Of a stretch of 64,000 nt of DNA, positions 16,101-45,757 are shown one piece after another. The position numbers and the translations under genes are program-made. Source of the stretch: Microcoleus sp. FACHB-672 (lineage in GTDB: Bacteria; Cyanobacteriota; Cyanobacteriia; Cyanobacteriales; Oscillatoriaceae); assembly GCF_014695725.1 (NCBI RefSeq), contig NZ_JACJOU010000004.1:248001-312000 (forward strand), read 5' to 3'. The notes beneath the pieces are model-generated. The model was not told the DNA's origin. It did no database searches and saw only the letters and a list, made by a program, of their open reading frames with translations. Position 1 is the stretch's first letter. Each line of letters begins with the position of its first letter.

Positions 16101-17315
16101 TTAGGCGATGCTGCCGCGCTTGCGGGCTTCTTTATACGATGTGCCCACATTTTGTAAGCCGGCTCTAATCATCTCTCGTTCCAGCAGTGAAAAGAAACGG
16201 GCGCGATCACCTCCTCGCACAACGGCTTGATTGTGAGCTTCTGCAAGTGCAACCGGATAACCATAGCCTTTCTGCACCTGAGCAACGGTTAAACTTAAGG
16301 TGGAGTCTAGCAGGTCGGGGTTTTCAGCCACCCACGCCGGCACCTCTATGCGAGCAATTTCAGTCCCGACATGGACATAGCAGAAATATATCGTGTGAGG
16401 GCCATACTGATCCAAAATGGGGGCAGAACTGCGCCACAGGGGACTTCGCTGCCCCGGTTCCAGCAAGGAGGCCCATAAGGCAGCATCTCGCAAGGGTTCA
16501 AAAACCTGGCAGGGTGCTTTGATCGGTTTGCCGGCAGCGTCTAAAGGCATCGTCGGCGGGCAATGGGTGACGCAGTTAGGAACTTCGTGAGGGCAAGCTT
16601 CCAAGCGCAGAAAGTTGATCGCTTCAATGCTGCGGGAGGCGCTGAGATATCCGACAATCGGAATTTGAGCGGCTTGTAGCTTGTCCCAGGCATCGAGAAT
16701 TGTGCAGAGGATGCGATCGCGTGCCTCAGTTGGCAGCGGTTCTAAAAACCAGTAAATTAGCGAACCGTCCACCATTGCGATGGTTGGCACCGGCAGCGCG
16801 GGAGCTGGTGCCCACACATTACAGGCTAGTTCTGCTAATATCGTTGCCTCCGATGCCGTGCGCCGGTAGCCCATCCACTCTTCTGTGCGAATTCCCCATT
16901 GCCGAGATTCATAAAGGTCTTCGGGCCGGTAGAATACTTCGGGAAGGCTGTCTAAAAGGGGATGCCGACTTTCGCCATAGTGCAATACCACTCTGCCCAC
17001 GTTAATTAAATAGCAGTATGCGATTTCATGGTGGTTCGGGGCAATTTGAGAGCCATCTGTGGCAATGACGGTGTGGACAGGTGGTGCCGGCGCAATGTAG
17101 ACGCGAGTTTGTAAATCCTCAACCGGCTCGGCAGCGGTAAAGATCAGGCGATTTCGCCAAGCTTGTTGTTTCGTGACTAATTCCGCATAATGAGCTTCGG
17201 CTCTGTGCATCAGGTGCTGGGCTAAGTCTAAGCGGTGGCGACCTGCATGGGCCTCTTGGGTGAGATGCTTACTGATGCCGGGAAGTTGCCGTGCGAGTTG
17301 TGTGAGATCAAGCAT
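16101..17315 (-). CDS. NurA-domain nuclease
   Basis: 404 residues with the NurA domain of the RNase H-like nuclease class. The two metal-binding strands are visible: VIATDGSQIAP with Asp87, and TIAMVDGSLIYWF with Asp183. Further conserved residues are in HVGTEIARIEVPAW and RGGDRARFFSLLEREMI near the C-terminus. NurA is a 5'-3' exonuclease/endonuclease that works with the HerA hexameric ATPase in DNA end resection, well studied in archaea and present in some bacteria. A HerA-type ATPase is encoded at 44012-45757 in this same window, 27 kb away. The start at 17315 gives the full N-terminal helical region. It seems to be a single-gene transcript. Confidence 0.85.
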   Translation of the reverse strand: MLDLTQLARQLPGISKHLTQEAHAGRHRLDLAQHLMHRAEAHYAELVTKQQAWRNRLIFTAAEPVEDLQTRVYIAPAPPVHTVIATDGSQIAPNHHEIAYCYLINVGRVVLHYGESRHPLLDSLPEVFYRPEDLYESRQWGIRTEEWMGYRRTASEATILAELACNVWAPAPALPVPTIAMVDGSLIYWFLEPLPTEARDRILCTILDAWDKLQAAQIPIVGYLSASRSIEAINFLRLEACPHEVPNCVTHCPPTMPLDAAGKPIKAPCQVFEPLRDAALWASLLEPGQRSPLWRSSAPILDQYGPHTIYFCYVHVGTEIARIEVPAWVAENPDLLDSTLSLTVAQVQKGYGYPVALAEAHNQAVVRGGDRARFFSLLEREMIRAGLQNVGTSYKEARKRGSIA

Positions 17316-20200: not shown

Positions 20201-23200
20201 ATGTCAAGCGCGTCACCTGTTAAGGTTAGTTTTAACCAAAAGAATGCAAGGATAAATCAGACCTCAGCCATGCGGCTGCCCCGAAGCCTCAGCGCCCTTG
20301 AAACTTGGGGCTTTGGTCTGACAGGTCACTTGGCATGGATTGGCACCGCACCGCTGATGCACGCTGCGCTTGGCCCCTCTGCAATTTTCGTGTGGTTGCC
20401 GGCGGCAGTTGTGGGGGTGTTACTAAACTTGCAGGTGAAACGCTTAGGGGAAGAGTGGCCAGATGTATCGGGCGGAACCCCTAATTATGCAACCAGGCTG
20501 CTCTCGAAGTATCCAGGTCTGGGTCGCTATATGGCGATCGCATACTTCATCGGCTGGGCCGGCTATTTGCCGATCAACCCAATCATCCTCACGGCGCTGG
20601 TTAAAGCCAACCTAGAACCCTTGGGCATTGCTTGTCCCGAAACCGCTCTCAAAATCGGATTCACGCTAATCGCTTATATTGTGGCGTTGAGCGGCACCCG
20701 CACCTTGGGAATTTTGCATACATTTTTCATTTTCCCAGCCGTGGGATTCTTGCTGGTGTTTTGCGTTCAAGGTTTGGGATGGTTAGCTTTCTCGCCGGCT
20801 AGTCCGGGACTTTTTCCCAGCAGTTTCTCGCCCTTAACCTTTACTGACTGGGCGAAGTGGTTCTTCTTTGCCGTCTACATTGCTTATGCGTGCGAAACAG
20901 GCTCCTCATTTGTCGCTGACAGCCGGCGTCCTGGAGAAACATTGCGAGCTCTCAAGCTGGCCGCTTGCCTAATCCCTGTTGTCGTTCTGGGCGGATCTTG
21001 GGTACTCATGCGTTTAGCGACACAACCGGGGCTAGGCGAGGATACATTTATGAATATGTTCGCCGCAGCTAAGCCATTCTGGGGTGAATCAGCCTCTTTG
21101 ATCGTCACGCTACTAATTGCCTCCAGCAGCCTTCTCGCTTGTGCCACTGCGGTTTCCAACTCTCCCCGCATTTTGTATCAACTAGCCCTAGACGGACACC
21201 TTTCACCTGTCTTCACGATCGTTTCCCGGCAGGGTGTTCTGCAACCGGCCTTAATTTTCTCCCTTTTCATCAGCCTGATTTATTTGGCTTGGGGAGATAT
21301 CTCTCGAATCGTAGTAGTCACCGGCAGTGGCTATATGGCAGCCATGATGTTAGTTCATCTGGGACTATGGCTACGCCGGGATCGGGCAGAAGTGCGCTGG
21401 GGTAAGTGGTCACTCGGCTTCTGCATCATGGAGGCACTTGTCCTGCTAGTGGGAGGCGTTGCTTGGAGTTGGCAAGATGTGCTGATCGGGCTGCTGTGTC
21501 CTGTCGCCATTTTGAGCGCGGATGCCCTTAGTCGCCGCATTGCCTTTCCACCGTTTCATCCAACGTGGTGGATTGAGCGTTACCGCCGGCGGAGTCGTCA
21601 GTTCCAAGATTTTGTTGCCTCTCAGGTACTCATTCTCCTCGTATTAGTTTGTAGTGCAACCGCAATTACCTGGGTGATTCGGGACAAGTTCGAGCGCATC
21701 GATCCCCGTGCCGGCAACAATCTTTTAGTTATTTTGCTCCTAACCAGTGCATTTGTCTCGATTGCCGTTGCCTGCTGGACAAGCTTGCCTCAAGTTGCTG
21801 CCATTGACGAAGCCCGTCAACACGCTGAAAATCTTTTTATTGCTGCCCTTGACACGGTTCCAGATACGATTCTCGTCGTCGGTGAAAACGGGGAAATTGA
21901 TCAGGCAAACCCAGCCGCAGAGGCACTCTTCGGCTTAAATGCCCATGAGTTGCTGGGGGAAAACTTGAACACACTTTTGCCCGGTTTAGGACATTCGCCG
22001 GCTCAATGGTCAAACCAAAGCGAACAAGCATTGGAACGCTATCAAGGCTTACGCATCATTGAAGCGACAGTTTCCGAGCGTTCAAATCGTAATCTTCCAG
22101 AATATATTGTCATTCTGCGCGACATTACAGAGCGCAAACACGCCGAGGCGGTTTTGCACGAAAGCGAAGAACGATTTCGCTTAATGGCAGATACCGCGCC
22201 GGTTCTGATTTGGGTTGCCGGCACTGATAAACGCTGTCATTACTTTAATAAAGTTTGGCTAGAATTCACCGGCAGAACAATGGAGGAAGAAGCCGGTCAT
22301 GGCTGGCTCGAAGGTGTTCATCCTGAAGATAGACAACAGTGTTTAGAAACCTATATTACTGAATTTGACGCCCGCCAAAGCTTCCGAATGGAATACCGTA
22401 TCCAGCGTGCTGACGGCGAGTATCGCTGGATCTTGGATACTGGAAATCCTCGGTTTTTACCAGATGGCAGCTTTGCCGGCTACATTGGCTCCTGTATTGA
22501 CATTACTGAACGCAAGCAGATCGAGTCAGCGCTACAAGCATCTAACCAGAGAACTGTAAATATTTTGGAAAGTATCACTGATGCCTTTTTGGCTCTAGAT
22601 CGGCAGTGGAACTTTACTTATATCAACCGACAAGCGCTTCATTTTTTTCAAAGAAGTACACCCGAAGAACTCCTCGGCAAGAATATTTGGCAGGAATATC
22701 CGCAAACAAGCGATTCGCTCTTTTACCATCAGTATCACAAAGCTGTCGCTCAACAAATTCCTGTAGCGTTTGAGAGCTACTCTCCACGTTTAAATATTTG
22801 GCTTGAAGTCCGCGCCTATCCGGCTGAAGATGGGCTTTCTGTTTACTTCCGTGACATCACTGAGCGCAAGCAAGCGGAAGAAGCCCTACAAACATCAGAA
22901 GCTCGTTTGAGAGCGCAAGCAACGCAGCTAGAACAAACACTGCAAGATTTACAGCGAACTCAAACTCAACTGATCCAGACAGAGAAAATGTCAGGTCTTG
23001 GTCAGTTGGTTGCCGGGGTTGCTCACGAAATTAACAATCCGGTTAACTTTATTTATGGCAACATCACTCACGTCAGCGAATACGCTCAGGAACTCCTGAA
23101 TTTAATACACCTTTTCGAGCAGGGTTATAGCTACAGCGATCCTGAAATTCAAGATTCTATTGACAAGATGGATCTTGATTTTATTATTGAGGATATGCCC

Positions 23201-23797
23201 AAGACCCTGTCTTCTATGAAAGTGGGAGCTGAACGTATCCGAAATATTGTGCTGACGTTGCGGAATTTCTCCCGGCTTGACGAATCAGATATGAAGCCGG
23301 TTGACATCCATGAAGGCATCGAAAGCACGCTGTTAATTTTGCAGAATGCGTTGAAGAACAAACCAGATTCTCCTGGTATTGAAATTATCAAGAAATATGA
23401 AGCGTTACCTCTGGTTGAATGTTATGCCGGCCAACTCAATCAGGTGTTTATGAACATCCTCACCAATGCCATTGACGCCTTGCATAAGCATGACAAAGAG
23501 CGAGCACCTGAACAGATCAAAGAGAACCCCAGTCAAATTACAATTCACACGCAAGTGCTGGACAGCAATCGCATAGGAATTCAGTTTAAAGACAATGGGC
23601 CAGGAATGAGCGAAAGCGTTCTGGCGCGAATATTTGATCCGTTTTTTACAACAAAACCTGTGGGAGAAGGCACCGGCTTGGGATTATCCATCAGCTATCA
23701 AATTATCGCTGACAAGCATAAAGGCCGGCTAGAATGTCACTCAGAACCCGGAGAAGGCGCAGAGTTTTGGATTGAAATTCCCATTAAGCAAAGCTGA
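20201..23797 (+). CDS. APC permease-PAS3-histidine kinase fusion
   Basis: 1198 residues. Residues 24-455 are an APC-superfamily (AA_permease_2-like) transporter. It has about twelve membrane helices, the helix-1 unwound GFGLTGH motif and the conserved ADSRRPGETLR loop. Two more helices (about 477-527) lead into PAS1 (545-645), PAS2 with a PAC tail (655-770) and PAS3 (786-892). A coiled coil then precedes HisKA, with the phospho-accepting His942 in AHEINNP. The HATPase domain follows with N-box NILTNAIDAL, DNGPGMS, FDPFFTTKP and GTGLGLS. All catalytic boxes look intact. The likely role is to sense a transported amino acid (or the transport state) and phosphorylate an unidentified regulator. 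First of three tandem paralogues; no adjacent response regulator. Confidence 0.9.
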   Translation: MSSASPVKVSFNQKNARINQTSAMRLPRSLSALETWGFGLTGHLAWIGTAPLMHAALGPSAIFVWLPAAVVGVLLNLQVKRLGEEWPDVSGGTPNYATRLLSKYPGLGRYMAIAYFIGWAGYLPINPIILTALVKANLEPLGIACPETALKIGFTLIAYIVALSGTRTLGILHTFFIFPAVGFLLVFCVQGLGWLAFSPASPGLFPSSFSPLTFTDWAKWFFFAVYIAYACETGSSFVADSRRPGETLRALKLAACLIPVVVLGGSWVLMRLATQPGLGEDTFMNMFAAAKPFWGESASLIVTLLIASSSLLACATAVSNSPRILYQLALDGHLSPVFTIVSRQGVLQPALIFSLFISLIYLAWGDISRIVVVTGSGYMAAMMLVHLGLWLRRDRAEVRWGKWSLGFCIMEALVLLVGGVAWSWQDVLIGLLCPVAILSADALSRRIAFPPFHPTWWIERYRRRSRQFQDFVASQVLILLVLVCSATAITWVIRDKFERIDPRAGNNLLVILLLTSAFVSIAVACWTSLPQVAAIDEARQHAENLFIAALDTVPDTILVVGENGEIDQANPAAEALFGLNAHELLGENLNTLLPGLGHSPAQWSNQSEQALERYQGLRIIEATVSERSNRNLPEYIVILRDITERKHAEAVLHESEERFRLMADTAPVLIWVAGTDKRCHYFNKVWLEFTGRTMEEEAGHGWLEGVHPEDRQQCLETYITEFDARQSFRMEYRIQRADGEYRWILDTGNPRFLPDGSFAGYIGSCIDITERKQIESALQASNQRTVNILESITDAFLALDRQWNFTYINRQALHFFQRSTPEELLGKNIWQEYPQTSDSLFYHQYHKAVAQQIPVAFESYSPRLNIWLEVRAYPAEDGLSVYFRDITERKQAEEALQTSEARLRAQATQLEQTLQDLQRTQTQLIQTEKMSGLGQLVAGVAHEINNPVNFIYGNITHVSEYAQELLNLIHLFEQGYSYSDPEIQDSIDKMDLDFIIEDMPKTLSSMKVGAERIRNIVLTLRNFSRLDESDMKPVDIHEGIESTLLILQNALKNKPDSPGIEIIKKYEALPLVECYAGQLNQVFMNILTNAIDALHKHDKERAPEQIKENPSQITIHTQVLDSNRIGIQFKDNGPGMSESVLARIFDPFFTTKPVGEGTGLGLSISYQIIADKHKGRLECHSEPGEGAEFWIEIPIKQS

Positions 23798-23915
23798 GTG
23801 GGAGTTAAACGAGCGCACTTGATAGCTGAGTTCAAATCCGCAGAAGCGAGCCGGTGCATCCACTCGATAAAAAGCTCAAATAATCATTCAACTTCTAATC
23901 AAAATTTAAGTAAAA

Positions 23916-26900
23916 ATGCCTACGCCGCCTTTTACTGGTGTGGATAATCCTCAGCGCGATTCCACGCGCTTACCCCGTAGCTTGAGTGCGCTGGAAACTT
24001 GGGGGTTCGGACTCACCGGCCATTTAGTAGGATGGGTCACCAATGCGCCGGCAATCCACTTAGCGCTGGGACCGGCTGCCATTTTTGTGTGGTTGCCGGC
24101 AGTATTCATGGGAGTGCTGTTCAACCTGCAAGTGAAACGCTTAGGGGAACAGTGGCCAGAAATGTCAGGGGGAACGCCCAATTATATAACCAGACTGCTG
24201 AGTAACTATCCCGCGCTAGGCCGTTATGCCGCAATCGCCTATTTCTTAGCCTGGGCCACCTTTCCGCCGGCAAGCGCCATCATCCTCACAGAAATTGTCA
24301 AAGCCAACTTAGAACCCTTTGGCATTGATTCCCCCGAACTCATTCTAAAAATAGCGTTTACCCTCATCGTTTACATTGTGGCGTTGAGCGGCACCCGCAC
24401 CTTGGCAATCTTGCAAGCATTTTTCATCTTCCCAGCCATTGGATTCTTGCTAGTCTTTTGCGTTCAAGGTCTGGGCTGGTTAGCCTTCTCACCCAACAGT
24501 CCCGGATTTTTCCCCTCCAGTTGGCCGCACCTAACCTGGGTTGATTGGGGCAAGTGGTCTTTCTTCGCAATTATGAGCAGTTGTGGCTGCGAAACTGCTT
24601 CCTGTTTTGTTGCTGACAGCCGGCGTCCAGGGGAAACCCTACGATTTCTTTCCTTCGCCGCTTGGCTGATTCCTCCCGTGTGTCTGGGGGGTTCCTGGGT
24701 GCTGGCGCGGTTAGCAGCCTCTCCGGGAGTGAATGACAACTCTTACTCGCTTTTAGTAACCTCTGCCACCATGTTTTGGGGCAGTTGGGCAACATTACCT
24801 ATAACACTCCTGCTCGCCTCAAGCTGTCTAGTGATTGCCGCAACTTCCGTCGCCAATGCGCCTCGCGTTTTATACCAACTCGCGCTAGACGGATACATTT
24901 CACCCGTGTTCAGCATCGTCTCTCCAGAGGGCGTTCTGCAACCGGCCCTTATATTCTCCCTTTTCATTAGTCTGATCGCTTTGGGTTGGGGAGATTTAGC
25001 CCAACTTGTCGTACTAACCTGTGCGCCGGCGATGGTAATGTTCATGGCATTGCATCTAGGTCTGTGGCTGCGTCGGCTTCAGCCAGAAGTGCGGTGGGGG
25101 CGGTTGTCCCTTGGCTTCTTCGCCTTTGATACGCTGGTGCTGGTAATGGTTGGCGTGGGATGGGGTTGGCAAGATTTAGCAATTGGGTTGTTATTGCCGG
25201 TGGCAATTGTGGCAGCAGATGCAGTGATCCGCCGTGTTTCCTTGCCACCCTTCTCCCCACAGTGGTGGGTGAGGAAAACCCCTGTGCCTTACCATCGCCA
25301 GTTTAAAGATTTTTTGGTGCTTCAGGTCGTTACCCTACTCGTATTAGTCTGTAGCGCTACGGTTATAGGCTGGGCGCTCAGGGCAATATTAGATAGAAGC
25401 GCTGACAGTGCCGGCAACGATCTTTTAATTGTTTTATTGCTAACAGTCGCCTTTTTTGCGATTGCAATTGCTTGCTGGACAAGCTTGCCTCAAGTTGCTT
25501 CAATTGCTCAAGCGCGGGAACAAGCAGAAAACTTGTTTATTACTGCCCTTGATACCGTTCCGGATACGATTCTCGTCGTGGCTAAAAACGGCGTGATTCT
25601 CCAAACTAACCCAGCCGCATCCACACTTTTTGACACCGGCACCGTTGAACTGGTTGGGCGTCATCTTCATGAGTTTTTGCCGGCAATAACGTTGGAGCCA
25701 GAGTTAGGGCAAAGCCGAAGTGAACAGATATTCAAGCGAAGTGAACAAGAATTACGCACGCTCGAAGCAACGATTTCACACCGAGCGAATCGAAAGCTAC
25801 AAGAATATATTGTGATACTGCGCGATGTGACGGAGCGCAAGCAAGTTGAGTTAGAATTGCGGCAAACATTGCAACTTAAAGAAGAACTTGCTGCCACGGC
25901 AACTGAGCAAGCCGAACAATTAGAAGGAGCGTTTCAGGAATTGCGGCAAACTCAAGAGCGGCTGCTTCAATCTGTAGAATCTGACCGAGTTTTAACGCAC
26001 GTTACAGACCAAATTCGCAGAACTTTAGATTTAAAGACAATTCTGGAAACAATTGTGCGAGAAGTCCTCGCGTTACTTCTCACAGATCGAGTTGTCATTT
26101 ACCAATTCACCCAAGATTGGAAAGGCAAAATTGTTGTAGAAACCGTCAGCGGGGAGTGGCAATTACTTCAGGGAGAGGAGTATGCAGATGAATGTTTTCC
26201 CACAGAGTACGCCCGCCTTTACACCTACGGACGCGTTAGAGCCGTTGATAATATTGCTGAGTCAGATTTAAATCCCTGTCATAAAAAGTTTTTGCAAGAA
26301 CTTAACATTAAAGCCAATCTTGTTGTACCGATTCGGATTGATTATTATTTGTGGGGATTACTAATCGCGCATGAATGTTCTGAGCCTAGGGTTTGGCAGC
26401 CGGCAGAAATTGAATTGCTGCAACAATTAGCTAACCAAGCAGCAATTGCGATTCAGCAAGCCGAACTCTATCAACAAAGCTGTTCTGCGGCTCAAACAGC
26501 AACCGCTCAAGCTCAGAAACTCGAACAAGCGCTGCAACAGCTTCAACAAGCTCAGGCTCAATTGGTTCAAAGTGAGAAAATGTCTTCGCTCGGTCAGTTG
26601 GTTGCCGGTGTGGCGCATGAGATTAACAACCCGGTTAATTTCATTTATGGCAACCTCACGTATGTTAGTGATTATACTCAGGCTCTCATGACGTTAATCA
26701 ACCTTTATCAAGAAGGTTATTCCCATACTGACCCAAAAATTCAAGACATTATTGAAGAGATTGACCTTGAGTTTTTGCTAGAAGATTTGCCAAAGACGGT
26801 CTCTTCCATGAAAATGGGAGCGAATCGCATTCGAGAGATTGTTTTAACCTTGCGAAATTTTTCTCGGCTTGACGAAGCAGATATGAAGCCGGTGGATATT

Positions 26901-27413
26901 CATGAAGGTTTGGATAGTACCCTTTTGATTTTGCAAAATCGCTTGAAAGCAAAACCGGAATTACCCGGGATTACAATTATTAAGGAATATGGGGAGTTGC
27001 CGGCAGTTGAATGTTATGCCGGCCAACTCAATCAAGTTTTTATGAATATCCTGGGCAATGGAATAGATGCCCTGCACAAACATGACGAAGCCCGAACACC
27101 TGAACAAATTAAAGACAGCCCCAGTACCATTGCAATTAGCAGCCGAGTTATTGACAGCAATCGCGTAGAAATTCGATTTAAAGATAATGGGCCGGGAATG
27201 ACAGAAAACATTAAAAAACGAGTATTTGACCCGTTTTTTACAACAAAACCAGTTGGTGAAGGCACCGGCTTGGGATTATCGATTAGTTATCAAATTATTG
27301 CAGACAAACATGGTGGGCAGATGAAGTGTAACTCGCAACCGGGCGAGGGGGCAGAGTTTATTATTGAGATTCCTATCAGGCAAAGCGCTTGTGCAAAAGT
27401 GAAGATTAGTTAA
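23916..27413 (+). CDS. APC permease-PAS-cyanobacteriochrome-like GAF-histidine kinase fusion
   Basis: 1165 residues. The transporter domain (20-445) and two connecting helices match the first paralogue. One PAS domain (541-641) is followed by a coiled coil and a GAF domain (about 691-850). The GAF has a DECF motif with Cys760 and a CH motif with Cys788-His789. These are the two cysteines and the spacing, 28 residues, of DXCF-type cyanobacteriochromes such as TePixJ, and the surrounding KANLVVPI and LWGLLIAHECS stretches also fit that family. HisKA follows with His901 in AHEINNP, then an intact HATPase. It is predicted to be a bilin-binding, light-sensing transporter-kinase; chromophore binding is inferred, not shown. 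It lies 118 bases after the first gene. Confidence 0.88.
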   Translation: MPTPPFTGVDNPQRDSTRLPRSLSALETWGFGLTGHLVGWVTNAPAIHLALGPAAIFVWLPAVFMGVLFNLQVKRLGEQWPEMSGGTPNYITRLLSNYPALGRYAAIAYFLAWATFPPASAIILTEIVKANLEPFGIDSPELILKIAFTLIVYIVALSGTRTLAILQAFFIFPAIGFLLVFCVQGLGWLAFSPNSPGFFPSSWPHLTWVDWGKWSFFAIMSSCGCETASCFVADSRRPGETLRFLSFAAWLIPPVCLGGSWVLARLAASPGVNDNSYSLLVTSATMFWGSWATLPITLLLASSCLVIAATSVANAPRVLYQLALDGYISPVFSIVSPEGVLQPALIFSLFISLIALGWGDLAQLVVLTCAPAMVMFMALHLGLWLRRLQPEVRWGRLSLGFFAFDTLVLVMVGVGWGWQDLAIGLLLPVAIVAADAVIRRVSLPPFSPQWWVRKTPVPYHRQFKDFLVLQVVTLLVLVCSATVIGWALRAILDRSADSAGNDLLIVLLLTVAFFAIAIACWTSLPQVASIAQAREQAENLFITALDTVPDTILVVAKNGVILQTNPAASTLFDTGTVELVGRHLHEFLPAITLEPELGQSRSEQIFKRSEQELRTLEATISHRANRKLQEYIVILRDVTERKQVELELRQTLQLKEELAATATEQAEQLEGAFQELRQTQERLLQSVESDRVLTHVTDQIRRTLDLKTILETIVREVLALLLTDRVVIYQFTQDWKGKIVVETVSGEWQLLQGEEYADECFPTEYARLYTYGRVRAVDNIAESDLNPCHKKFLQELNIKANLVVPIRIDYYLWGLLIAHECSEPRVWQPAEIELLQQLANQAAIAIQQAELYQQSCSAAQTATAQAQKLEQALQQLQQAQAQLVQSEKMSSLGQLVAGVAHEINNPVNFIYGNLTYVSDYTQALMTLINLYQEGYSHTDPKIQDIIEEIDLEFLLEDLPKTVSSMKMGANRIREIVLTLRNFSRLDEADMKPVDIHEGLDSTLLILQNRLKAKPELPGITIIKEYGELPAVECYAGQLNQVFMNILGNGIDALHKHDEARTPEQIKDSPSTIAISSRVIDSNRVEIRFKDNGPGMTENIKKRVFDPFFTTKPVGEGTGLGLSISYQIIADKHGGQMKCNSQPGEGAEFIIEIPIRQSACAKVKIS

Positions 27414-27689
27414 TTCTTTGTTAAGGTAATTAACTCTAGCCGGCTCCATACAAAATAACCATTTTCCTTGGCAGAGGCTTCAAGAACCCAATTTCCTCGT
27501 GCCATAAACTGTGACGTCTATAAACGTATACTTTTTGTCGATAAGAGTCTGTGCGGTAAAGCTTTCAAGCCGAAAAATAAAATTAATCGATAACTGAGAA
27601 CTGCTTAGAAAAATTTCATACAAGCATTTACTGAATTATTTATAATGGTGTATTCAAAATATTTAGCTTTTAACACCTAAAAAATAATA

Positions 27690-30593
27690 ATGCCTACGCA
27701 GCCTTTCATGGGTTTAGCCGGCGATCAGCCTATCGCAAAGCCCCTTCCCCGAACCTTAAGCGTCCTAGAAACTTGGGGATTTGGTCTCACTGGCCATCTC
27801 TCATGGCTTTTCAGCGTCCCGACAATCGCTGTAGCCCTAGGGCCATCTGCCATCTTCGTGCTATTACCGGCAGTCATTGTGGGGATGCTGCTCAACCTCC
27901 AAGTCAGGCGCTTAGGCGAACGTTGGCCAGACATTGCTGGGGGAACGCCCAATTATACCGCTAGGCTACTCAACAACTATCCCCGCCTGGGTCGCTATGC
28001 AGCAATTGGTTACTGGAGCGCTTGGATAGCCTTTTTGCCAATCAACGCAATTGGTATTACGGAACTGATCAAGGCCAATCTGGAAACGATGGGAATCGCC
28101 TGTCCGGAGACAATTCTAAAAATTGGCTTTACGGTGATCCCCTTTATCTTGGCCTTTAGCGGCACCCGCGCTTTGGCAATCCTGCACTTGTTTTTTATCC
28201 TGCCGGCGATAGCATTCCTGTTTACCTATTGCCTTCAAGGTCTCGGCTGGTTAGCTTTCTCTCCAGCGTCTCCCGGATTTTTCCCTTCTGTCCAGACTAG
28301 CAGTGTCGCGTCTTTCCAAATCAAAGATTGGATGCAGTGGCTTTTCTTCTCCCTCTGGGCTACCTGCGGCTGTGAAACCGCGTCCTGTTTTGTCGCCGAT
28401 AGCCGCCGTCCGGGGGAAACTCTGCGTTTTCTCACCTTCGCAGCTTGGTTAATTCCTGTGCTGTATCTGGGTGGTTCCTGGGTAGTCATCCGTTTGGCTA
28501 CCGAACCGGGAATTGGCGTCAACCCTTTTAGCATCTTGTTAGTAGCGGCCCAACCTTTCTGGGGCAGCTCAGCTTCTTTTCTGGTGACGCTGTTGATCAG
28601 CTCAGGCTGTCTTCTCGGCTGCGCCACAGTCGTTTCTAATACACCGCGGATCTTATACCAACTTGCCAAAGATGGGCAGATATCGCCAGTATTTGCAGTG
28701 GTTTCCCGCCGGGGTGTCTTGGGTCCTAGCCTTGTGTTTGGCCTTTTACTCAGTTTGGTTTGTTTAATTTGGGGAGACATCACCCGAATCGTTATGGTGA
28801 CGGGGACGGGTGGGTTTGCCTGTACCCTGATTCTGTTTCTAGGATTGTGGCTGCGTCGAGGCCGGCCTGAAGCACGTTCGCGAAACCGGCGTGAAGCTGT
28901 TTGGCCTTGGTGCTGGCTGGGTTTATTTGTATTAGAGGCAGTTGTCTTGATCGTCGCCGGCTTAGCGATCGGCTGGCAAGATATGCTCCTGGGACTTCTT
29001 CTTCCCCTTGCTCTTTTAGGAGTGGATGCCGCAATTCGCCGCATTCCCTTTGCGCCATTCCATCCAAACTGGTGGATCAACCGCGATCAAATCAAGCCTC
29101 AAGGCCATTTCAAAGATTTTGTAGCAGTTCAGGTGCTAGTCTTGCTGATTTTGGTTTGTGGCGCTGCCTCTGCCAGTTGGTTTATTAAGGCAAAGTTAGA
29201 TGGGGACGCTGCTAGTGCCAGCAACGATCTGTTTATCGTTTTGCTTATGACGATTGCCTTTGTGGGAATCGCCATCGCTTGCTGGACGAGTTTGCCCCAA
29301 GTTGCAGCGATTGCCGAAGCGCGAGAAATCGCTGAAAGTCGCTTTATTACAGCGCTCGATACCGTTCCCGATACGGTTCTCGTCATTAATAACAATGGTG
29401 CGATCCGTCAAGCAAACCCAGCCTCCGAGCAACTCTTTGACCTAAAAACCGTTGAGTTAATTGAGCGTCCTCTTAATCATTTCTTTCCACAGTTACCACT
29501 GGTTCCGGATTTGTGGCCTAATCGGAATGAACAAACACTGGATCGCGGTGATCGTGGCTTGCGTTTTATTGAATTAACGATTTCTCAACGAGCCAATCGA
29601 GAGCTATCAGAATATATTGTTATCCTGCGCGATATAACAGATCGCAAACTTTCTGAGGTGGCTTTGCGGGACTCGGAAGAAACTGCAAGGCAGCAAGCCA
29701 CTCAACTAGAACTTACCTTGCAAGATTTACGGCGCACCCAAGCACAATTAATTCAAACCGAGAAAATGTCTAGCCTGGGTCAACTGGTTGCGGGGGTCGC
29801 TCACGAGATTAATAATCCAGTCAATTTCATCCACGGTAATCTCGCTCATATCAGTGAGTACACAGAGGATTTCCTGAGTTTAATTAACCTTTACCAGCAG
29901 GGTTATCGTCATAGTGACCCAGAAATTCAAACCCTTATTGAAGAAATTGATCTTAACTATTTAGTAGAAGATTTACCTAAAATGGTGTCTTCGATGAAAG
30001 TCGGGGCGAATCGCATTCGAGAAATTGTTTTAACCTTGCGTAACTTTTCCCGGCTTGATGAAGCTGAAATGAAGGGTGTTAACATTCATGAAGGTCTTGA
30101 CAGTACGCTGTTGATTTTGCAGAATCGCTTGAAAGAAAAACCAGAACTGCCCAGTATTGAAATTATTAAAAACTATGAGGATTTACCTTTGGTTGAATGC
30201 TATGCCGGCCAACTCAATCAAGTCTTTATGAATATCCTCAGCAATGGAATTGATGCCCTACATAACCATGATAAAGAGCGAACCGCTCAACAGATTCAAG
30301 AACAGCCCAGTACCATTACTATTCAAACGCGATTGTTAGCCAACACCCGCGTGGTAATTAGTTTTAAAGATAATGGGCCGGGAATGAGCGAAATTGTTCG
30401 TAAACGGATATTTGATCCGTTTTTTACAACAAAACCTGTGGGAGAAGGCACCGGCTTGGGATTATCGATTAGTTATCAAATTATTGTAGACAAACATGGA
30501 GGCCGGCTAGAATGTGTATCGCAACCCGGAGGAGGGGCAGAGTTTATTATTGAAATCCCGCTCACGCAGAAGCTAAAGCAGCGCGAGAATTAA
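27690..30593 (+). CDS. APC permease-PAS-histidine kinase fusion (shortest copy)
   Basis: 967 residues, the simplest of the three. The transporter (about 20-460) has a basic loop RPEARSRNRREAVW. It is followed by two helices, one PAS domain (552-655), a coiled coil, HisKA with His705 in AHEINNP, and an HATPase with NILSNGIDAL, DNGPGMS, FDPFFTTKP and GTGLGLS. It lacks the extra PAS domains of copy 1 and the GAF of copy 2, so the sensory linker has been changed while the two ends stay alike. A 276-base spacer precedes it, longer than between copies 1 and 2, so it may have its own promoter. rlmN follows after 56 bases. Confidence 0.9.
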   Translation: MPTQPFMGLAGDQPIAKPLPRTLSVLETWGFGLTGHLSWLFSVPTIAVALGPSAIFVLLPAVIVGMLLNLQVRRLGERWPDIAGGTPNYTARLLNNYPRLGRYAAIGYWSAWIAFLPINAIGITELIKANLETMGIACPETILKIGFTVIPFILAFSGTRALAILHLFFILPAIAFLFTYCLQGLGWLAFSPASPGFFPSVQTSSVASFQIKDWMQWLFFSLWATCGCETASCFVADSRRPGETLRFLTFAAWLIPVLYLGGSWVVIRLATEPGIGVNPFSILLVAAQPFWGSSASFLVTLLISSGCLLGCATVVSNTPRILYQLAKDGQISPVFAVVSRRGVLGPSLVFGLLLSLVCLIWGDITRIVMVTGTGGFACTLILFLGLWLRRGRPEARSRNRREAVWPWCWLGLFVLEAVVLIVAGLAIGWQDMLLGLLLPLALLGVDAAIRRIPFAPFHPNWWINRDQIKPQGHFKDFVAVQVLVLLILVCGAASASWFIKAKLDGDAASASNDLFIVLLMTIAFVGIAIACWTSLPQVAAIAEAREIAESRFITALDTVPDTVLVINNNGAIRQANPASEQLFDLKTVELIERPLNHFFPQLPLVPDLWPNRNEQTLDRGDRGLRFIELTISQRANRELSEYIVILRDITDRKLSEVALRDSEETARQQATQLELTLQDLRRTQAQLIQTEKMSSLGQLVAGVAHEINNPVNFIHGNLAHISEYTEDFLSLINLYQQGYRHSDPEIQTLIEEIDLNYLVEDLPKMVSSMKVGANRIREIVLTLRNFSRLDEAEMKGVNIHEGLDSTLLILQNRLKEKPELPSIEIIKNYEDLPLVECYAGQLNQVFMNILSNGIDALHNHDKERTAQQIQEQPSTITIQTRLLANTRVVISFKDNGPGMSEIVRKRIFDPFFTTKPVGEGTGLGLSISYQIIVDKHGGRLECVSQPGGGAEFIIEIPLTQKLKQREN

Positions 30594-30649: not shown

Positions 30650-31681
30650 ATGTTAGCAGTTTCAACCTCTAAAACTCCCCTGTTAGGGGCTTCTTTGGCA
30701 GAGTTAACCGAGTGGGTTCAGCAACAGGGGCAACCGGCTTATCGGGGGCAACAGTTGCATCAATGGATTTATCAAAAAGGGGCGCGATCGCTTTCTGAAA
30801 TTACGGTATTTTCTAAACAGTGGCGTGAAACGGTTGCAGATTTCCCAATAGGCCGGTCAACCATTCACTACCGCTCAGTTGCCCCGGATGATACGGTTAA
30901 GTACCTCCTGACGCTGGCAGACGGTCAAATTATCGAAGCGGTTGGCATTCCCACAGAAAAGCGCCTCACGGTTTGCGTGTCTTCCCAGGTGGGTTGTCCG
31001 ATGGGCTGCGATTTCTGCGCCACCGGCAAGGGCGGTTTTAAGCGCAATCTCGCCACTCACGAAATTGTTGATCAGGTTTTAACGGTTCAAGAAGACTTTA
31101 ACCGGCGCGTCAGTCATATTGTCTTTATGGGCATGGGCGAACCCTTGCTGAATACGGATAACGTTCTGGCTGCCTTGCGATCACTCAACGAAGATGTGGG
31201 CATCGGACAGCGAAATATCACGGTTTCTACGGTGGGAATCCAAAATCGCATCCGCCAACTGGCAGAACATAAACTCCAAGTTACCCTAGCGGTTAGCCTC
31301 CACGCGTCTAATCAAGAGTTGCGTGAACAGCTAATTCCCAGTGCGCTGCGGTATCCTTTGCCAGAGCTTATATCAGAATGTCGGGAATATGTCAAAACAA
31401 CGGGCCGCCGGCTCAGCTTTGAATATATTTTGCTTGCCGGCATGAATGACTTGCCGGAACACGCAGTTGAACTTGCGGAGTTAATGCGGGGATTTCAATG
31501 TCATGTCAATTTAATTCCCTACAATCCGATCAGTGAAGCCGGTTATCAGCGTCCCAGCCAGCAGCGGATTCAATCATTTGTGAAAGCATTGCAAGATCGG
31601 AAAGTTGCAGTGAGTGTACGTTATTCTCGCGGTTTAGAAGCGGATGCTGCTTGTGGGCAACTTCGAGCTTCTAAAAGTTAA
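30650..31681 (+). CDS. rlmN: 23S rRNA (adenine-2503-C2)/tRNA methyltransferase
   Basis: 343 residues. RlmN is a radical SAM enzyme that methylates C2 of A2503 in 23S rRNA and of A37 in some tRNAs. The radical SAM cluster motif is [13 protein letters not shown] with C116, C120 and C123. The radical-SAM barrel motifs [10 protein letters not shown] and SLHASNQ are intact. The C-terminal [13 protein letters not shown] contains the Cys that carries the mixed methyl intermediate. The N-terminal helical domain (residues 1-100) has the usual [15 protein letters not shown]. It lies 56 bases after the third permease-kinase and is probably co-transcribed or very near it. Confidence 0.97.
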
Positions 31682-34394: not shown

Positions 34395-36014
34395 ATGCTC
34401 GGACAAACCATCGGTGGGCGCTACTCCCTGATCAGCGAATTGGGAGAAGGGGCATTTGGCAAAACTTACCTAGCAGAAGACCGGCATTTACCCGGCAACC
34501 CCGTCTGTGCAGTTAAACAACTCAAACCCGCCAGTACAGATCCCAAGACTTTAGAGGAAGCAAGGCGCTTATTTCACACAGAAGCAGAAACCCTTCAGCA
34601 GCTTGGCCCCCATGAGCAAATTCCCCGGCTTTTAGCTCATTTTGAAGAAAATCGAGAATTCTATTTAGTTCAAGAATTCATCAAAGGTCACGATCTGAGC
34701 TATGAAATGACTGCCGGCAAACAATTGAGCGAATCCTATACCATCGCGCTTTTACAAAACACCCTCAAAGTCTTGGAATTTGTTCACCAGCAGCAAGTCA
34801 TCCACCGCGATATTAAGCCATCCAACCTGATGCGACGAGAACCAGATGGCAAACTGATTCTGATTGATTTTGGTGCGGTTAAACAAATTAGAACGAAGGT
34901 AGTCAATAGTCAAGGAATGACGAGATCGACGGTGCAAATTGGCACATTTGGCTATATGCCCAGCGAACAAGCCCAAGGCCGGCCAAAATTAAGTAGTGAT
35001 ATTTATGCTTTGGGCATGATCGCGATTCAAGCACTCACCGGCATCTTTCCCGATGAACTGCCAGACGATCCTGAGACGGGTGAAATTTGCTGGCGAAACC
35101 TAGTGCCGGTGCGCGCAAACCTGGCAGATATTTTAGACAAAATGGTGCGTTATGACTTCCGGCAGCGCTACCCGTCTGCAACTGAGGCATTACAAGCATT
35201 AGCCGGCTTGGAAACTTCACCCATTTCAATAGTCCCCAATAAAGCCAAAGCTTGGTTAAAACATAGCAAAGTGCTGTATCAAGCTAAACGTTATCAGGAA
35301 GCAATTGCTGCCTGTGAGCAAGCAATTTCAATTAAATCTGACTTTCATGAAGCTTGGGATATGCTTGGCAATGCGCTTTATGAATTAGGCCGGCATCACG
35401 AAGCACTAACATCGTATGACAAAGCTATTCAAATTAAACCTAACTTTCCCGAAGTTTGGAACAACCGCAGCAGAACACTCTTTAGTTTACAGCGCTACGA
35501 AGAGGCAATTTTTGCCTCAGACAAAGCGATTCAACTCAAGCCAGATTTCTATGCAGCTTGGAATAACCGAGGCTTTGCGCTTTTTAGTTTACAGCGTTAC
35601 GAAGAAGCAATCGCTGCCTATGAACAAGCGATTTCTATCAAGCCAGATTTTGCGGAAGCTTGGTTGAATCGAGGTTCGGCGTTTGAGGAATTGCAGCGCT
35701 ATGAAGAAGCCATTGCTTGTTATGACAAAGCCATTCAACTCGAGCCAGATTACCCTCAAGCTTGGAATAGCCGAGGCTTGGCGTTTGATAACTTGCAACG
35801 CTACTCACAAGCTATTGCCTGTTATGACAAAGCGATTCAACTCAAGCCAGATTACTATCAAGCTTGGAATAACCGAGGCGTGGCTTTAGATAACTTGCAG
35901 CGGTATAGAGAAGCCATTGCCTCCTTTAATCAAGCGATTCAACTCAAGCCCGATTTTCAATTAGCCCTAGATAACCGAAACGAGGTGCACGGTAAGTTGC
36001 AATGGTATATATAG
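34395..36014 (+). CDS. Ser/Thr protein kinase with C-terminal TPR repeats
   Basis: 539 residues. The kinase domain (about 8-270) has the Gly-rich loop GEGAFG, the ATP-anchoring Lys41 in AVKQLK, the catalytic loop HRDIKPSN with Asp139, and DFG with Asp158. The activation segment runs to the equivalent of APE (YMPSEQA). The TPR region (about 285-530) has seven repeats of near-34-residue period, each with the same core (AIACYDKAIQLKPDYYQAWNN). The kinase is probably active and binds partners through the TPR. No transmembrane segment was seen. It is a paralogue of the gene at 37394. Confidence 0.92.
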   Translation: MLGQTIGGRYSLISELGEGAFGKTYLAEDRHLPGNPVCAVKQLKPASTDPKTLEEARRLFHTEAETLQQLGPHEQIPRLLAHFEENREFYLVQEFIKGHDLSYEMTAGKQLSESYTIALLQNTLKVLEFVHQQQVIHRDIKPSNLMRREPDGKLILIDFGAVKQIRTKVVNSQGMTRSTVQIGTFGYMPSEQAQGRPKLSSDIYALGMIAIQALTGIFPDELPDDPETGEICWRNLVPVRANLADILDKMVRYDFRQRYPSATEALQALAGLETSPISIVPNKAKAWLKHSKVLYQAKRYQEAIAACEQAISIKSDFHEAWDMLGNALYELGRHHEALTSYDKAIQIKPNFPEVWNNRSRTLFSLQRYEEAIFASDKAIQLKPDFYAAWNNRGFALFSLQRYEEAIAAYEQAISIKPDFAEAWLNRGSAFEELQRYEEAIACYDKAIQLEPDYPQAWNSRGLAFDNLQRYSQAIACYDKAIQLKPDYYQAWNNRGVALDNLQRYREAIASFNQAIQLKPDFQLALDNRNEVHGKLQWYI

Positions 36015-37057: not shown

Positions 37058-37393
37058 ATCTGTGCAATCAGAGAAAGTGAGCAGCAACCAACGCAAGCCC
37101 CAGCCGGCCAAACTCGTCAAAGCCGGTTAAGACCCGAACAATTCACGATACAGTGAATAGTGCCGGCTCGCAAAAAACTTGCTAAATTGCATCCAGTAAA
37201 TTTTTCTATCAAAATAGGGACAGCCCCAAAGCCGCGAATCTAGGCTGATCGCCGAAAACTTGCCGGCAGGATGTACAGCCGGCAGCAATCGGGCAACGCC
37301 AAATCCCGGCTTTGAGATCGGAAAATTTACAGGTAGCTAAATGTGGCAAATAGCTGCCTGGAGTGTGCTGCCATTGCTCTCACCCCTACATCT

Positions 37394-39613
37394 ATGGACT
37401 CTTTTTTACTCGGACAAATACTGGCAGGACGGTACAAAATTGTCAGCTTCTTGGGAGGAGGGGCGTTTGGTCAGACTTACATCGCACAAGACTTGCAACT
37501 ACCCGACTACCCACGCTGTGTTGTCAAACAACTCAAACCGCAGACAACCGATCCGCTGACATTAGAAACTGCCAGACGTTTATTTGATACCGAAGCAAAA
37601 GTCCTGCATCAATTAGGCCGGCATGATCAGATCCCTCGTCTGCTTGCTCACTTTGAAGAACAGCAAGAATTTTACCTGGTGCAGGATTGCATAGAAGGGG
37701 AACCGCTCAACCAAGAAATCAAAGTCGGTAAGCGTTTAAGTGAAGCAGAAGTCATCGTTTTATTGCGTGATGTTTTATCAACCCTAGCCTTTGTCCACCG
37801 GCAGAATGTCATCCACCGTGATATTAAACCCTCCAACTTAATCAGACGCAACTCAGACGGCAAAATTGTTTTAATCGACTTTGGTGCAGTCAAACAAGTG
37901 AGTACCCAAGCTGGGGACGATAATTTTACTGTTGCCATTGGCACTCCCGGCTATATGCCAAACGAACAGTTGGGAGGACAACCGCGTCCCAACAGTGACA
38001 TCTATGCGTTAGGTGCGATCGCCATCCAAGCATTAACCGGCATCCTTCCCTCCCGGTTGCGGCAAGACGCGCAAACCGGCGAACTTATTTGGCACAATGA
38101 CGCCCAAGTAAGCGATCGGCTAGCAGCCATTATTGATAAAATGGTGCGCTATCACTTTAAAGATCGCTACCAAACCGCTGAGGAAGCCCTCGCAGATCTT
38201 GAGGATCTGGAAAATTATGCGATGGCTTCAACCATTGCCTCTCACCCCAGCCTAGAAGGGCCAATTGATGCGCCCAGAATGCCGGCTGGCTCAACCCTGC
38301 CTCAACAGGGGGCAACGGTGCATTCAACTCCACCCCGGCAACGCTCTAAAAAGTTGTGGTACATCTTAATACCCGGACTGGTTGCCGGTTTAGTTGTCGG
38401 GTTTTTTAAGTTTTTTCCCACCACCGATTATCTCGCTCAAGCCAATCAATTTCTCGACGCGCAACAACCAGAAGAAGCGATTTCAACCATTGATAAATCT
38501 CTCAGGATTAACCCGAATGAGGCAAAAGCCTGGAAAATTCGCGGCGATGCTCTCTTTTTATTAGAACGCTATGAGGCAGCGCTGGCAGCCTACGAAAAAG
38601 CCAGTCAAATTGACCCAAAAGATCCCAAAGCCTGGAACAACCAAGGGGAAACGCTTTATTTATTGCAACGCTACGAAGAAGCCCTCAAAGCCCACGACAA
38701 GGCGCTAGAACTTGCTGCTAATAATATTCAAGCCGTGAATGGGCGGGGGATTGCCTTGCTTGGTTTGAAGCGTTACCAAGATGCCCTTTCTTCCTTTAAT
38801 AAAGCTCTACAAATCCAGCCGAATGACCCTAAATCTTGGGAAAACCGAGCTTTAGCGCTAGAGTATTTGCAACGCCTCCAAGAATCGCGTAAAGCGTTTG
38901 AAGAAGCGCTGGCTTCTTATAATGACAAAATTAAATTAAATGCTAATGATTTAGAAACTTTGATTAACCGGGGGCGCGTGTTAGGAAAATTGCAGCGTCC
39001 CACAGAAGCGCTCGCTTCTTATGACAGCGCGATCAAAATTAACCCAAACTTTTTTCCCGCCTGGGTGGGGAAAGGCAGTACATTATTTTTTGCCCAGAAA
39101 CCTGAAGAAGCCCTAAAAGCTTATGATCAAGCGCTGGAAATTAGACCAAAATCTTATTTGAGCCGGCATAATCGAGGGTCTTTACTCATGGCAATGCAGC
39201 GCCCCGAAGATGCTATCAAAGATTATGACAAAGCTATCGAAATTCAAAATAACTTTTATCCGGCTTTAAGAGACCGAGGATTTGCACTTTTGCAATTGCA
39301 GAAAACTCAAGATGCAGTCGCTTCTTTTGATAAAGCGATAAAATATGAAAGTAAGGATCATAAATCTTGGGTGGGTCGAGGCATTGCACTCAAGCAGCTT
39401 AAGCGTAACGAGCAAGCGCTAGCAGCCTTAGACAAAGCGATATCGATTGAGCCAAACGATCCGGTTCCTTTGTTCCATCGGGGTTTGACTCTAGAGGAAA
39501 TGCAACGAGATGAAGATGCCCTTAATGCTTATAACCAAGCAATTACAGCGGATGCGACCTTCGCGCCGGCTATCGAAGCTCGTTCTAAGCTACAACAGAA
39601 GTTAGGGCTATAA
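37394..39613 (+). CDS. membrane-anchored Ser/Thr protein kinase with TPR repeats
   Basis: 739 residues from the ATG at 37394, the family-like start (MDSFLLGQILAGRY). A GTG at 37343 would add 17 residues and has a better ribosome-binding site. Kinase domain: GGGAFGQTY, the Lys in VVKQLKPQ, HRDIKPSN and DFGAVKQ, with a following GTPGYMPNEQ activation segment. After a linker rich in Pro/Thr/Ser comes one membrane helix (KKLWYILIPGLVAGLVVGFF). About ten TPR units then fill the rest, e.g. AWNNQGETLYLLQRYEEALKA. It is probably kinase inside, TPR outside. A paralogue of the gene at 34395. Confidence 0.9.
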   Translation: MDSFLLGQILAGRYKIVSFLGGGAFGQTYIAQDLQLPDYPRCVVKQLKPQTTDPLTLETARRLFDTEAKVLHQLGRHDQIPRLLAHFEEQQEFYLVQDCIEGEPLNQEIKVGKRLSEAEVIVLLRDVLSTLAFVHRQNVIHRDIKPSNLIRRNSDGKIVLIDFGAVKQVSTQAGDDNFTVAIGTPGYMPNEQLGGQPRPNSDIYALGAIAIQALTGILPSRLRQDAQTGELIWHNDAQVSDRLAAIIDKMVRYHFKDRYQTAEEALADLEDLENYAMASTIASHPSLEGPIDAPRMPAGSTLPQQGATVHSTPPRQRSKKLWYILIPGLVAGLVVGFFKFFPTTDYLAQANQFLDAQQPEEAISTIDKSLRINPNEAKAWKIRGDALFLLERYEAALAAYEKASQIDPKDPKAWNNQGETLYLLQRYEEALKAHDKALELAANNIQAVNGRGIALLGLKRYQDALSSFNKALQIQPNDPKSWENRALALEYLQRLQESRKAFEEALASYNDKIKLNANDLETLINRGRVLGKLQRPTEALASYDSAIKINPNFFPAWVGKGSTLFFAQKPEEALKAYDQALEIRPKSYLSRHNRGSLLMAMQRPEDAIKDYDKAIEIQNNFYPALRDRGFALLQLQKTQDAVASFDKAIKYESKDHKSWVGRGIALKQLKRNEQALAALDKAISIEPNDPVPLFHRGLTLEEMQRDEDALNAYNQAITADATFAPAIEARSKLQQKLGL

Positions 39614-44011: not shown

Positions 44012-45757
44012 ATGAATCCAGAAAAGCCTTTAGGCTCGGTTATTCAAGGTTCCCTTAGTCAGGGACTCGAAGTGCGACTTCATCCGGATGTATCTGTAGA
44101 AGATATGCGGGTGGGTAAATTTTTGGTTGTTCGGGGCACGAGATCGCACTTTTTTTGTATGCTCACAGATGTTTGTCTGGGAACGTCGAGTGCTCGCATT
44201 GTGGCGAATCCTCCCCTCCCGGAGGACGATTTCTTGCAAGCGGTTTTAGCCGGCAGTGGCACTTATGGCACGATTAGTCTGTCGCCAATGCTGATGCTGA
44301 CTCCAGACGAACTTGAGGAATGGGAGAGAGGCGGAACGGCAGCAGTGCAGCGGCGCGCCGGCTTAGAAGAAAATGATGGTAAAGGGGTACTTGCTTCTTT
44401 TCAGGCGCAAAGTGGCAGGCAGATCGAATTGCTGCCGGTGAAGACAATTCCCAGCCATTTCTCTCAAGTTTTTGACGCCAGTGAACGGGATTTCCGCAGC
44501 GTTTTTGGTTGGGAAGATGACCCCCACCGACGCAATTTTGCGATTGGTAAACCGCTTGATATGGACGTGCCGGTTTGTATTGACTTAGATCGGTTTGTCG
44601 AACGCAGCAACGGAGTATTTGGCAAATCCGGCACCGGCAAATCCTTTTTAACTCGCTTGTTGTTATCTGGGGTGATCCGCAAGCAAGCAGCGGTGAATCT
44701 AATTTTTGATATGCACTCCGAGTACGGTTGGGAAGCTGCAACTGAAGGCAAACAATTTAGCACGGTTAAAGGTTTGCGACAGTTATTCCCCAGCCAAGTT
44801 GAAATTTACACCCTCGATCCCACCTCAACAAAACGGCGTGGGGTGCGAGATGCTCAAGAACTTTATCTCAGCTACGATCAAATTGAAGTTGAAGATATTA
44901 GCCTCGTACAGAGAGAGTTAAATCTTTCAGAAGCCAGCATCGAAAATGCGATCATTCTCCGCAACGAGTTTGGCAAATCTTGGATTACTCAGTTGTTGGC
45001 GATGAGTAATGAAGAAATACAGATGTTTTGTGAGGAGAAGCGGGGTAATAAGTCTTCGATTATGGCGCTGCAACGCAAACTCATGCGTTTGGATGAACTC
45101 AAGTATATGCGGAACAGCAGCCCGAAGGATTATATCGGTCAGATTTTAGAATCGATCACTGCCGGTAAACACATCGTCATTGAATTTGGATCTCAATCGG
45201 ATATGCTGTCTTATATGCTGGCGACGAATATGATTTCTCGCCGCATCCACGCCAGTTATGTTCAAAAATCTGAGCGGTTTTTACAGTCGAAAAATCCCAT
45301 TGATCGCCCCCGCCAACTGGTAATTACCATTGAAGAAGCGCACCGTTTTCTTGATCCTGCGATTGTGCGTTCAACGATTTTTGGCACCATTGCACGAGAA
45401 ATGCGGAAATATTTTGTCACTCTACTGATTGTCGATCAGCGTCCTTCGGGAATTGATAATGAGGTAATGTCTCAAGTTGGCACCCGCATCACTGCTTTGC
45501 TAAATGATGACAAAGATATTGATGCAATTTTCACCGGCGTCTCTGGCGGACAAAGTTTACGCTCAGTTTTGTCTAAGTTGGATTCCAAGCAACAAGCACT
45601 TATTTTAGGTCATGCCGTGCCGATGCCGGTGGTTGTGCAGACTCGTCCCTATGACGAAACCTTTTACAAGGAAATTGGGGAGGTTGCCTGGGAAGAAATG
45701 CCTACTGCTACAGTTTTAAAAGCTGCCGAAGCGGCTAGAGCAGATTTAGGCTTTTAG
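44012..45757 (+). CDS. herA: HerA-type hexameric ATPase (DUF87)
   Basis: 581 residues. The N-terminal barrel (about 1-150) is the HerA "HAS-barrel"-like region, followed by the FtsK/HerA-type ATPase core. Walker A is GVFGKSGTGKSF with Lys210 and Ser211. The Walker B region is LVITIEEAHRFL with Glu441 and Glu442. LLIVDQRPSGIDNEVMSQ is the sensor-like strand. HerA pumps DNA through a hexameric ring and stimulates NurA in DNA end resection. NurA is encoded at 16101-17315. The ATG at 44012 has a weak ribosome-binding site but fits the family N-terminus. It is a single-gene unit. Confidence 0.88.
   Translation: MNPEKPLGSVIQGSLSQGLEVRLHPDVSVEDMRVGKFLVVRGTRSHFFCMLTDVCLGTSSARIVANPPLPEDDFLQAVLAGSGTYGTISLSPMLMLTPDELEEWERGGTAAVQRRAGLEENDGKGVLASFQAQSGRQIELLPVKTIPSHFSQVFDASERDFRSVFGWEDDPHRRNFAIGKPLDMDVPVCIDLDRFVERSNGVFGKSGTGKSFLTRLLLSGVIRKQAAVNLIFDMHSEYGWEAATEGKQFSTVKGLRQLFPSQVEIYTLDPTSTKRRGVRDAQELYLSYDQIEVEDISLVQRELNLSEASIENAIILRNEFGKSWITQLLAMSNEEIQMFCEEKRGNKSSIMALQRKLMRLDELKYMRNSSPKDYIGQILESITAGKHIVIEFGSQSDMLSYMLATNMISRRIHASYVQKSERFLQSKNPIDRPRQLVITIEEAHRFLDPAIVRSTIFGTIAREMRKYFVTLLIVDQRPSGIDNEVMSQVGTRITALLNDDKDIDAIFTGVSGGQSLRSVLSKLDSKQQALILGHAVPMPVVVQTRPYDETFYKEIGEVAWEEMPTATVLKAAEAARADLGF

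Follow-up and report, generated by a model that had tools for sequence, protein, structure and literature searches.

A cyanobacteriochrome-type GAF domain within an APC permease-histidine kinase of Microcoleus: a predicted light- and solute-gated sensor

What might a photoreceptor-type domain do inside a protein that is part transporter and part histidine kinase? The question is raised by a gene in a 64,000-nucleotide stretch of DNA from Microcoleus sp. FACHB-672 (contig NZ_JACJOU010000004.1, positions 248,001 to 312,000 of the forward strand), here called the window and numbered from its first letter. The open reading frame (ORF) at 23916-27413 (+) encodes 1165 residues, in which an APC permease of the LeuT fold, a PAS domain, a GAF domain resembling those of cyanobacteriochromes (CBCRs) and a histidine kinase follow one another in a single chain. 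The GAF domain occupies 25980-26489 (+; residues 689-858), as placed by Pfam, PDB sequence matches, the fold match of a predicted model and phylogenetic trees. That it binds a bilin is predicted with good confidence from its sequence; that the whole fusion is a two-input transceptor, its histidine kinase gated by light and by a solute, is the reading we favor with more reserve.

The identity of the GAF domain rests on more than its motifs. Pfam recognized GAF at residues 705-846 (E 4.5e-22). The original prediction had called attention to a DECF motif (26187-26198 (+), residues 758-761) and a Cys-His pair (Cys788-His789, 26277-26282 (+)), with Cys760 and Cys788 separated by 28 residues, and had likened them to C494 and C522 of TePixJ; the spacing was confirmed in the translated ORF, and the two TePixJ positions agree with those given in PMC6955287. 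TePixJ (3vv4) aligned with the domain without gaps through both bilin cysteines (phmmer, E 7.4e-33), which indicates homology and not a chance motif; the latter was ruled out because CBCR homology spans the whole domain, in sequence matches and in the fold match of the model. The best solved relatives were CBCRs, and the domain combines the Asp-X-Cys-Phe and Cys-then-His signatures of the DXCF family. A red/green (XRG) or DXCIP type was rejected on the motif, DECF plus CH; the DXCIP type is described as being without the canonical cysteine (PMC5578081). In alignment, the pocket loop resembled that of RcaE. The TePixJ entries were not among the 50 fold matches listed for the GAF model, an absence that carries no weight against kinship with TePixJ.

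In DXCF CBCRs, according to the available accounts, the canonical cysteine holds the bilin and the DXCF cysteine bonds reversibly to its C10 atom; a blue-absorbing dark state is reported, with a teal-to-orange photoproduct (PMC5578081, PMC6628166, PMC11284453). We infer that the fusion GAF is a genuine dual-cysteine CBCR, in which phycocyanobilin, possibly isomerized to phycoviolobilin, would be attached through Cys788, the predicted canonical cysteine by motif and alignment. Cys760, as the predicted second cysteine, would bond reversibly to C10 to give a violet/blue-absorbing dark state, and the photoproduct would absorb at longer wavelength (teal to orange). The host encodes phycocyanobilin synthesis: a heme oxygenase was found in its genome, as was PcyA, which scored over its cut-off. 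GAF domains with DXCF plus CH are in themselves no rarity here: the genome has at least four other complete ones (L035, L036, L039 and L040). What is rare is their fusion to a permease. A further CBCR-like GAF of this genome, with DNCF and PCH motifs (L041; G000 C7:385158-385727), has its match split by additional residues ahead of the LWGLLIAHECS strand, and similar splits were seen in L042 and L043.

Five genomes of two families were found to carry the fusion: the Microcoleus genome itself, two genomes of the same genus (G386 and G387), one of the same family (G388) and one of another family (G453, family f47), so that it is present in four of the eight genomes of family f1 and in one of the six of f47. 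When a query running from the end of the permease to the GAF was used, 7 of 388 genomes drawn from the order matched, five of them over the whole length, and 2 of 386 drawn from the phylum, where the own gene alone matched over the whole length; at most four candidates were scored per genome in either draw, and these counts are lower bounds. A search of 60 relatives recovered permease-kinases in 21, and the loci from it, when scanned for the GAF, added only those of G386, G387 and G388 to the own gene. Overall identity of the other four fusions to the window protein was 94, 92, 71 and 63%, yet D758, C760, F761, C788 and H789 were identical in all five, with Y765 replaced by His in G453. Within the G388 protein the GAF was the best-kept domain (85% identity; permease 72%, PAS 48%, histidine kinase 73%), and in G453 GAF and histidine kinase tied at 70%. 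The core of the original prediction, that a permease-histidine kinase houses a GAF of CBCR type in which the two cysteines, the Asp and the His are all present, is upheld by the conservation of this set across the fusions and by a genome equipped with heme oxygenase and PcyA.

The relatives of this GAF were placed in a maximum-likelihood tree of 57 GAFs, from which four weak or duplicate rows were left out. The window GAF and three orthologues grouped (100/99) within a clade (92/87) holding 30 GAFs of other proteins; the nearest GAF relatives showed 52-61% identity. The underlying search scored at most nine candidates per genome, and 29 of the 38 matches from other genomes were read as loci; its counts are lower bounds. 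A PHY domain preceded this GAF in all five host proteins scanned (of the 30), and the copy in a protein on contig C26 of the own genome matched 6oza/6ozb at about 1e-67. The first of these entries we take to be All2699, and the label All2699-type used here is based in part on that assignment. The PHY hits and the C26 match identify the nearest kin of the domain, at least for the five proteins scanned, as the third GAF (GAF3) of knotless-phytochrome kinases. C760, C788 and H789 were invariant in 34 of 34 clade members read, and the DXCF Asp was found in five of them, namely four fusions (G453 not being among the 34) and L159; judged by these residues, the GAF3 domains are a coherent dual-cysteine clade without the DXCF Asp. 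In a brief literature search nothing was found on the photochemistry of knotless-phytochrome GAF3 domains, the sole mention of a GAF3 in the text retrieved being a reference on Slr1393. As far as the available description goes, the SyB-Cph1 construct omitted the downstream GAF (PMC11264168).

At either side of the GAF lie the modules with which it would have to work. The permease domain (23967-25235 (+), about residues 18-440) is a transporter-fold membrane domain, with AA_permease_2 recognized by Pfam at residues 41-411 and fold matches to LAT, AdiC and ApcT over about 394-430 residues. Two more hydrophobic stretches, detected by hydropathy in a region where the model has low confidence, lie at 25296-25508 (+; about residues 461-531), 5' of the PAS domain (25548-25844 (+), residues 545-643; Pfam PAS_4, E 4e-7). 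The kinase combines a HATPase_c domain (27024-27380 (+), residues 1037-1155; Pfam E 2.7e-22) with a predicted phospho-acceptor, His901, in the sequence AHEINNP (26616-26618 (+)), within a weak HisKA match at residues 892-987 that scored 22.7 bits, below the Pfam cut-off of 26.9. The GAF would be cytoplasmic, between the PAS domain and the dimerizing helices of the kinase. The helices that lead to His901 would receive two inputs, the light-induced change of the GAF and a signal of permease conformation or occupancy, direct or by way of the PAS. With the PAS domain before the GAF and the kinase after it, light most likely determines kinase output jointly with the permease/PAS signal.

Several points weigh against this model or parts of it. 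H498, W499 and Q526 of the TePixJ pocket correspond to E764, Y765 and F792 in the fusion GAF. The seven solved CBCRs in the tree fall in a neighboring branch (92/80), with the clade of the window GAF outside it and neither value strong; DXCF is seen in only one of the seven, TePixJ, whose branch is long. The original prediction had taken clustering outside CBCR families, together with loss of the pocket Asp and His, as what would count against it; the two residues are kept, but the clade forms a branch of its own beside the solved CBCRs. Among the sister GAF3 domains (L130, L137-L165), both cysteines and the His are kept in 30 of 30 and the DXCF Asp is replaced in 29 of 30, and we know of no bilin test for any member of this GAF clade. 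In a quick tree to which G453 was added (three of the seven PDB references only; four weak or duplicate rows left out), the five fusions formed one group at 56% support, and at 93% when L159 was included, which makes a single origin of the fusions likely, not proven. No response regulator was found among the ten neighboring ORFs scanned, and the search went no further into the window or the genome. As for the solute half of the model, that the permease domain binds or moves a solute is a presumption. The Pseudomonas kinase CbrA calls for further caution on that half, in that none of its kinase activities is reported to be significantly affected by histidine (PMC7096432).

The alternative that best survives, itself unlikely, is that the GAF is derived from a CBCR and no longer binds a bilin, acting as a structural or small-molecule relay while its motif persists through descent or in some other role, such as thiol/redox or metal sensing by the two cysteines. 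The retention of both cysteines in all the sister domains, most of which have lost the Asp, would fit a redox or metal role as well, and other GAF domains of the genome are without CBCR motifs; against this stand the Asp, the Phe, the His and the paired cysteines kept throughout the fusions, the RcaE-like pocket loop, and the PHY modules of the scanned sister proteins, which place the lineage in photoreceptors. We likewise doubt, and somewhat more, that the fusion is a kinase governed by light only, with a working bilin GAF and a permease part that is vestigial or a mere membrane anchor with no sensing role. No permease substrate is known, and transport can be lost in transporter-like sensors, as in Ks-Amt5, which is reported to bind its ion without translocating it (PMC5764959); nevertheless, the two distant fusions retain 72% and 59% identity in the permease, its transporter-fold matches cover about 394-430 residues, and it persists in proteins that have no such GAF. 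Permease-kinases were found in at least 35 of 386 genomes of the phylum, in a survey that scored at most three candidates per genome and missed the own window gene, so that the count is a lower bound; the GAF was absent from all 30 of the permease-kinase loci read there, 29 of them from other genomes.

A light-controlled transporter, as the original prediction proposed, in which the photostate of the GAF alters transport by the permease to which it is joined, whether or not the kinase also signals, is very improbable: although the protein is a single polypeptide and its permease has a true amino-acid-transporter fold, PAS and linker separate the GAF from the membrane, and its position next to the kinase points to control of the latter. 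Equally improbable is a bidirectional photo-transceptor, a single chain that would sense or move an amino acid as well as read light color, and in which the bilin state would set both kinase output and the conformational cycle of the permease, so that light color would gate nutrient uptake or sensing.

How the GAF came to lie in a permease-kinase is suggested by the paralogues. The genome was found to encode four permease-kinases, of which three lie in the window and the fourth on contig C14, and among these four the GAF is indeed confined to the 23916-27413 gene, as had been claimed. The three in the window form a tandem (20201-30593) in which the sensor insert differs: a PAS array in the first (20201-23797 (+)), PAS plus GAF in the fusion and a single PAS in the third (27690-30593 (+)), the first and third being without GAF. 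Downstream of the third lies rlmN (30650-31681 (+)), which directly adjoins the fusion in G386 and G388. The fusion kinase is closest to the permease-kinase paralogues (72% identity over residues 861-1159 and 74% over 859-1157), and the C26 protein is 59% identical to the fusion over GAF and kinase (677-1156). From the last PAS motif to the phospho-acceptor His there are 57 residues in both window paralogues, versus 264 in the fusion, where a similar linker flanks the GAF on either side: the copy before it (25908-25982 (+)) resembles the one PAS-kinase linker that each window paralogue has, and the second copy follows it (26508-26582 (+)). The simplest reading of these sequences is that a permease-kinase acquired a GAF3 within its PAS-kinase linker; the heptad phase of the insertion was uninformative.

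Other observations concern the genome and the wider window. The whole fusion protein gave 163 matches in its own genome, and many of those listed fall in the kinase region, which shows how strongly this kinase type has expanded there. Long TPR arrays are fused to Ser/Thr protein kinases in two proteins, at 34395-36014 and 37343-39613. A NurA-domain protein (16101-17315 (-)) and a HerA-type protein with DUF87 and HAS-barrel domains (44012-45757 (+)) are about 27 kb apart, and an ORF of 2098 residues lies at 46395-52691 (-).

If the GAF binds a bilin, nutrient (permease) and light-color signals would meet on one kinase in a single molecule, a natural gate that ties nutrient status to photosynthetic light and a scaffold for light-gated nutrient sensing. 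The fusion GAF also draws attention to the dual-cysteine clade formed by GAF3 domains of knotless phytochromes. These All2699-type domains are its nearest relatives, in the same clade with both cysteines and the His kept, but their kinases differ in their PHY module and in the common loss of the DXCF Asp; the fusion protein had no PHY match at E <= 0.01 in Pfam and hence not the GAF1-PHY arrangement of knotless (Cph2-type) phytochromes. TePixJ and other DXCF CBCRs share DXCF plus CH, the spacing of 28 and, for TePixJ, the gap-free alignment, and differ in tree branch and in some pocket residues. The closest solved structure to the fusion GAF, by sequence and by model, is that of PPHK (6OAP), a dual-sensor histidine kinase of Leptolyngbya JSC-1 described as integrating light and phosphorylation in one kinase as a logic OR (PMC8584932, PMC11480761); in PPHK the second input is phosphorylation, and in the alignment its DQYF stands at the place of DXCF, without the second cysteine.

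CbrA (SLC5-STAC-PAS-kinase; PMC13022988, PMC7096432) and the Amt-kinase Ks-Amt5 (PMC5764959) likewise join a transporter-type membrane domain to a histidine kinase, but their membrane part is SLC5 or Amt, not APC, and the portions of these papers available mention no photoreceptor domain. Pfam listed AA_permease_2 and no SLC5-type family in the fusion protein at E <= 0.01; a STAC match was also absent from the listing, Pfam not having been checked for a STAC model. No CbrX-like small peptide was found upstream, in four stretches around gene starts examined for ATG frames of at least 20 residues on the + strand only. A literature search judged by titles and the opening lines of abstracts, with most subscription journals outside its coverage, found no CBCR-permease fusion among the papers listed, and one aimed at kinases fused to amino acid permeases in cyanobacteria yielded nothing related.

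The nearest precedent in layout is SynEtr1/UirS (Slr1212) of Synechocystis, which likewise carries a membrane ligand-receptor domain, a CBCR GAF and a histidine kinase in one chain (PMC6682694, PMC5578081), with a PAS between, by comparison with GeiEtr2 (PMC6682694); UirS is called a DXCF CBCR and has a known cognate regulator, UirR (PMC5578081). Its membrane part is an ethylene-binding domain, whereas the N-terminus of the fusion is a full APC permease. A bilin-binding fusion would carry the SynEtr1 principle, ligand and light on one receptor, beyond a gas to sensors of the transporter type. The "new signalling arrangement" of the original prediction was too strong, since in SynEtr1/UirS a membrane receptor for a ligand is already joined to a DXCF CBCR and a kinase (PMC6682694, PMC5578081); by this analogy, with membrane receptor plus CBCR plus kinase and transporter plus kinase both known as arrangements, CBCR plus permease is best seen as a variant of them.
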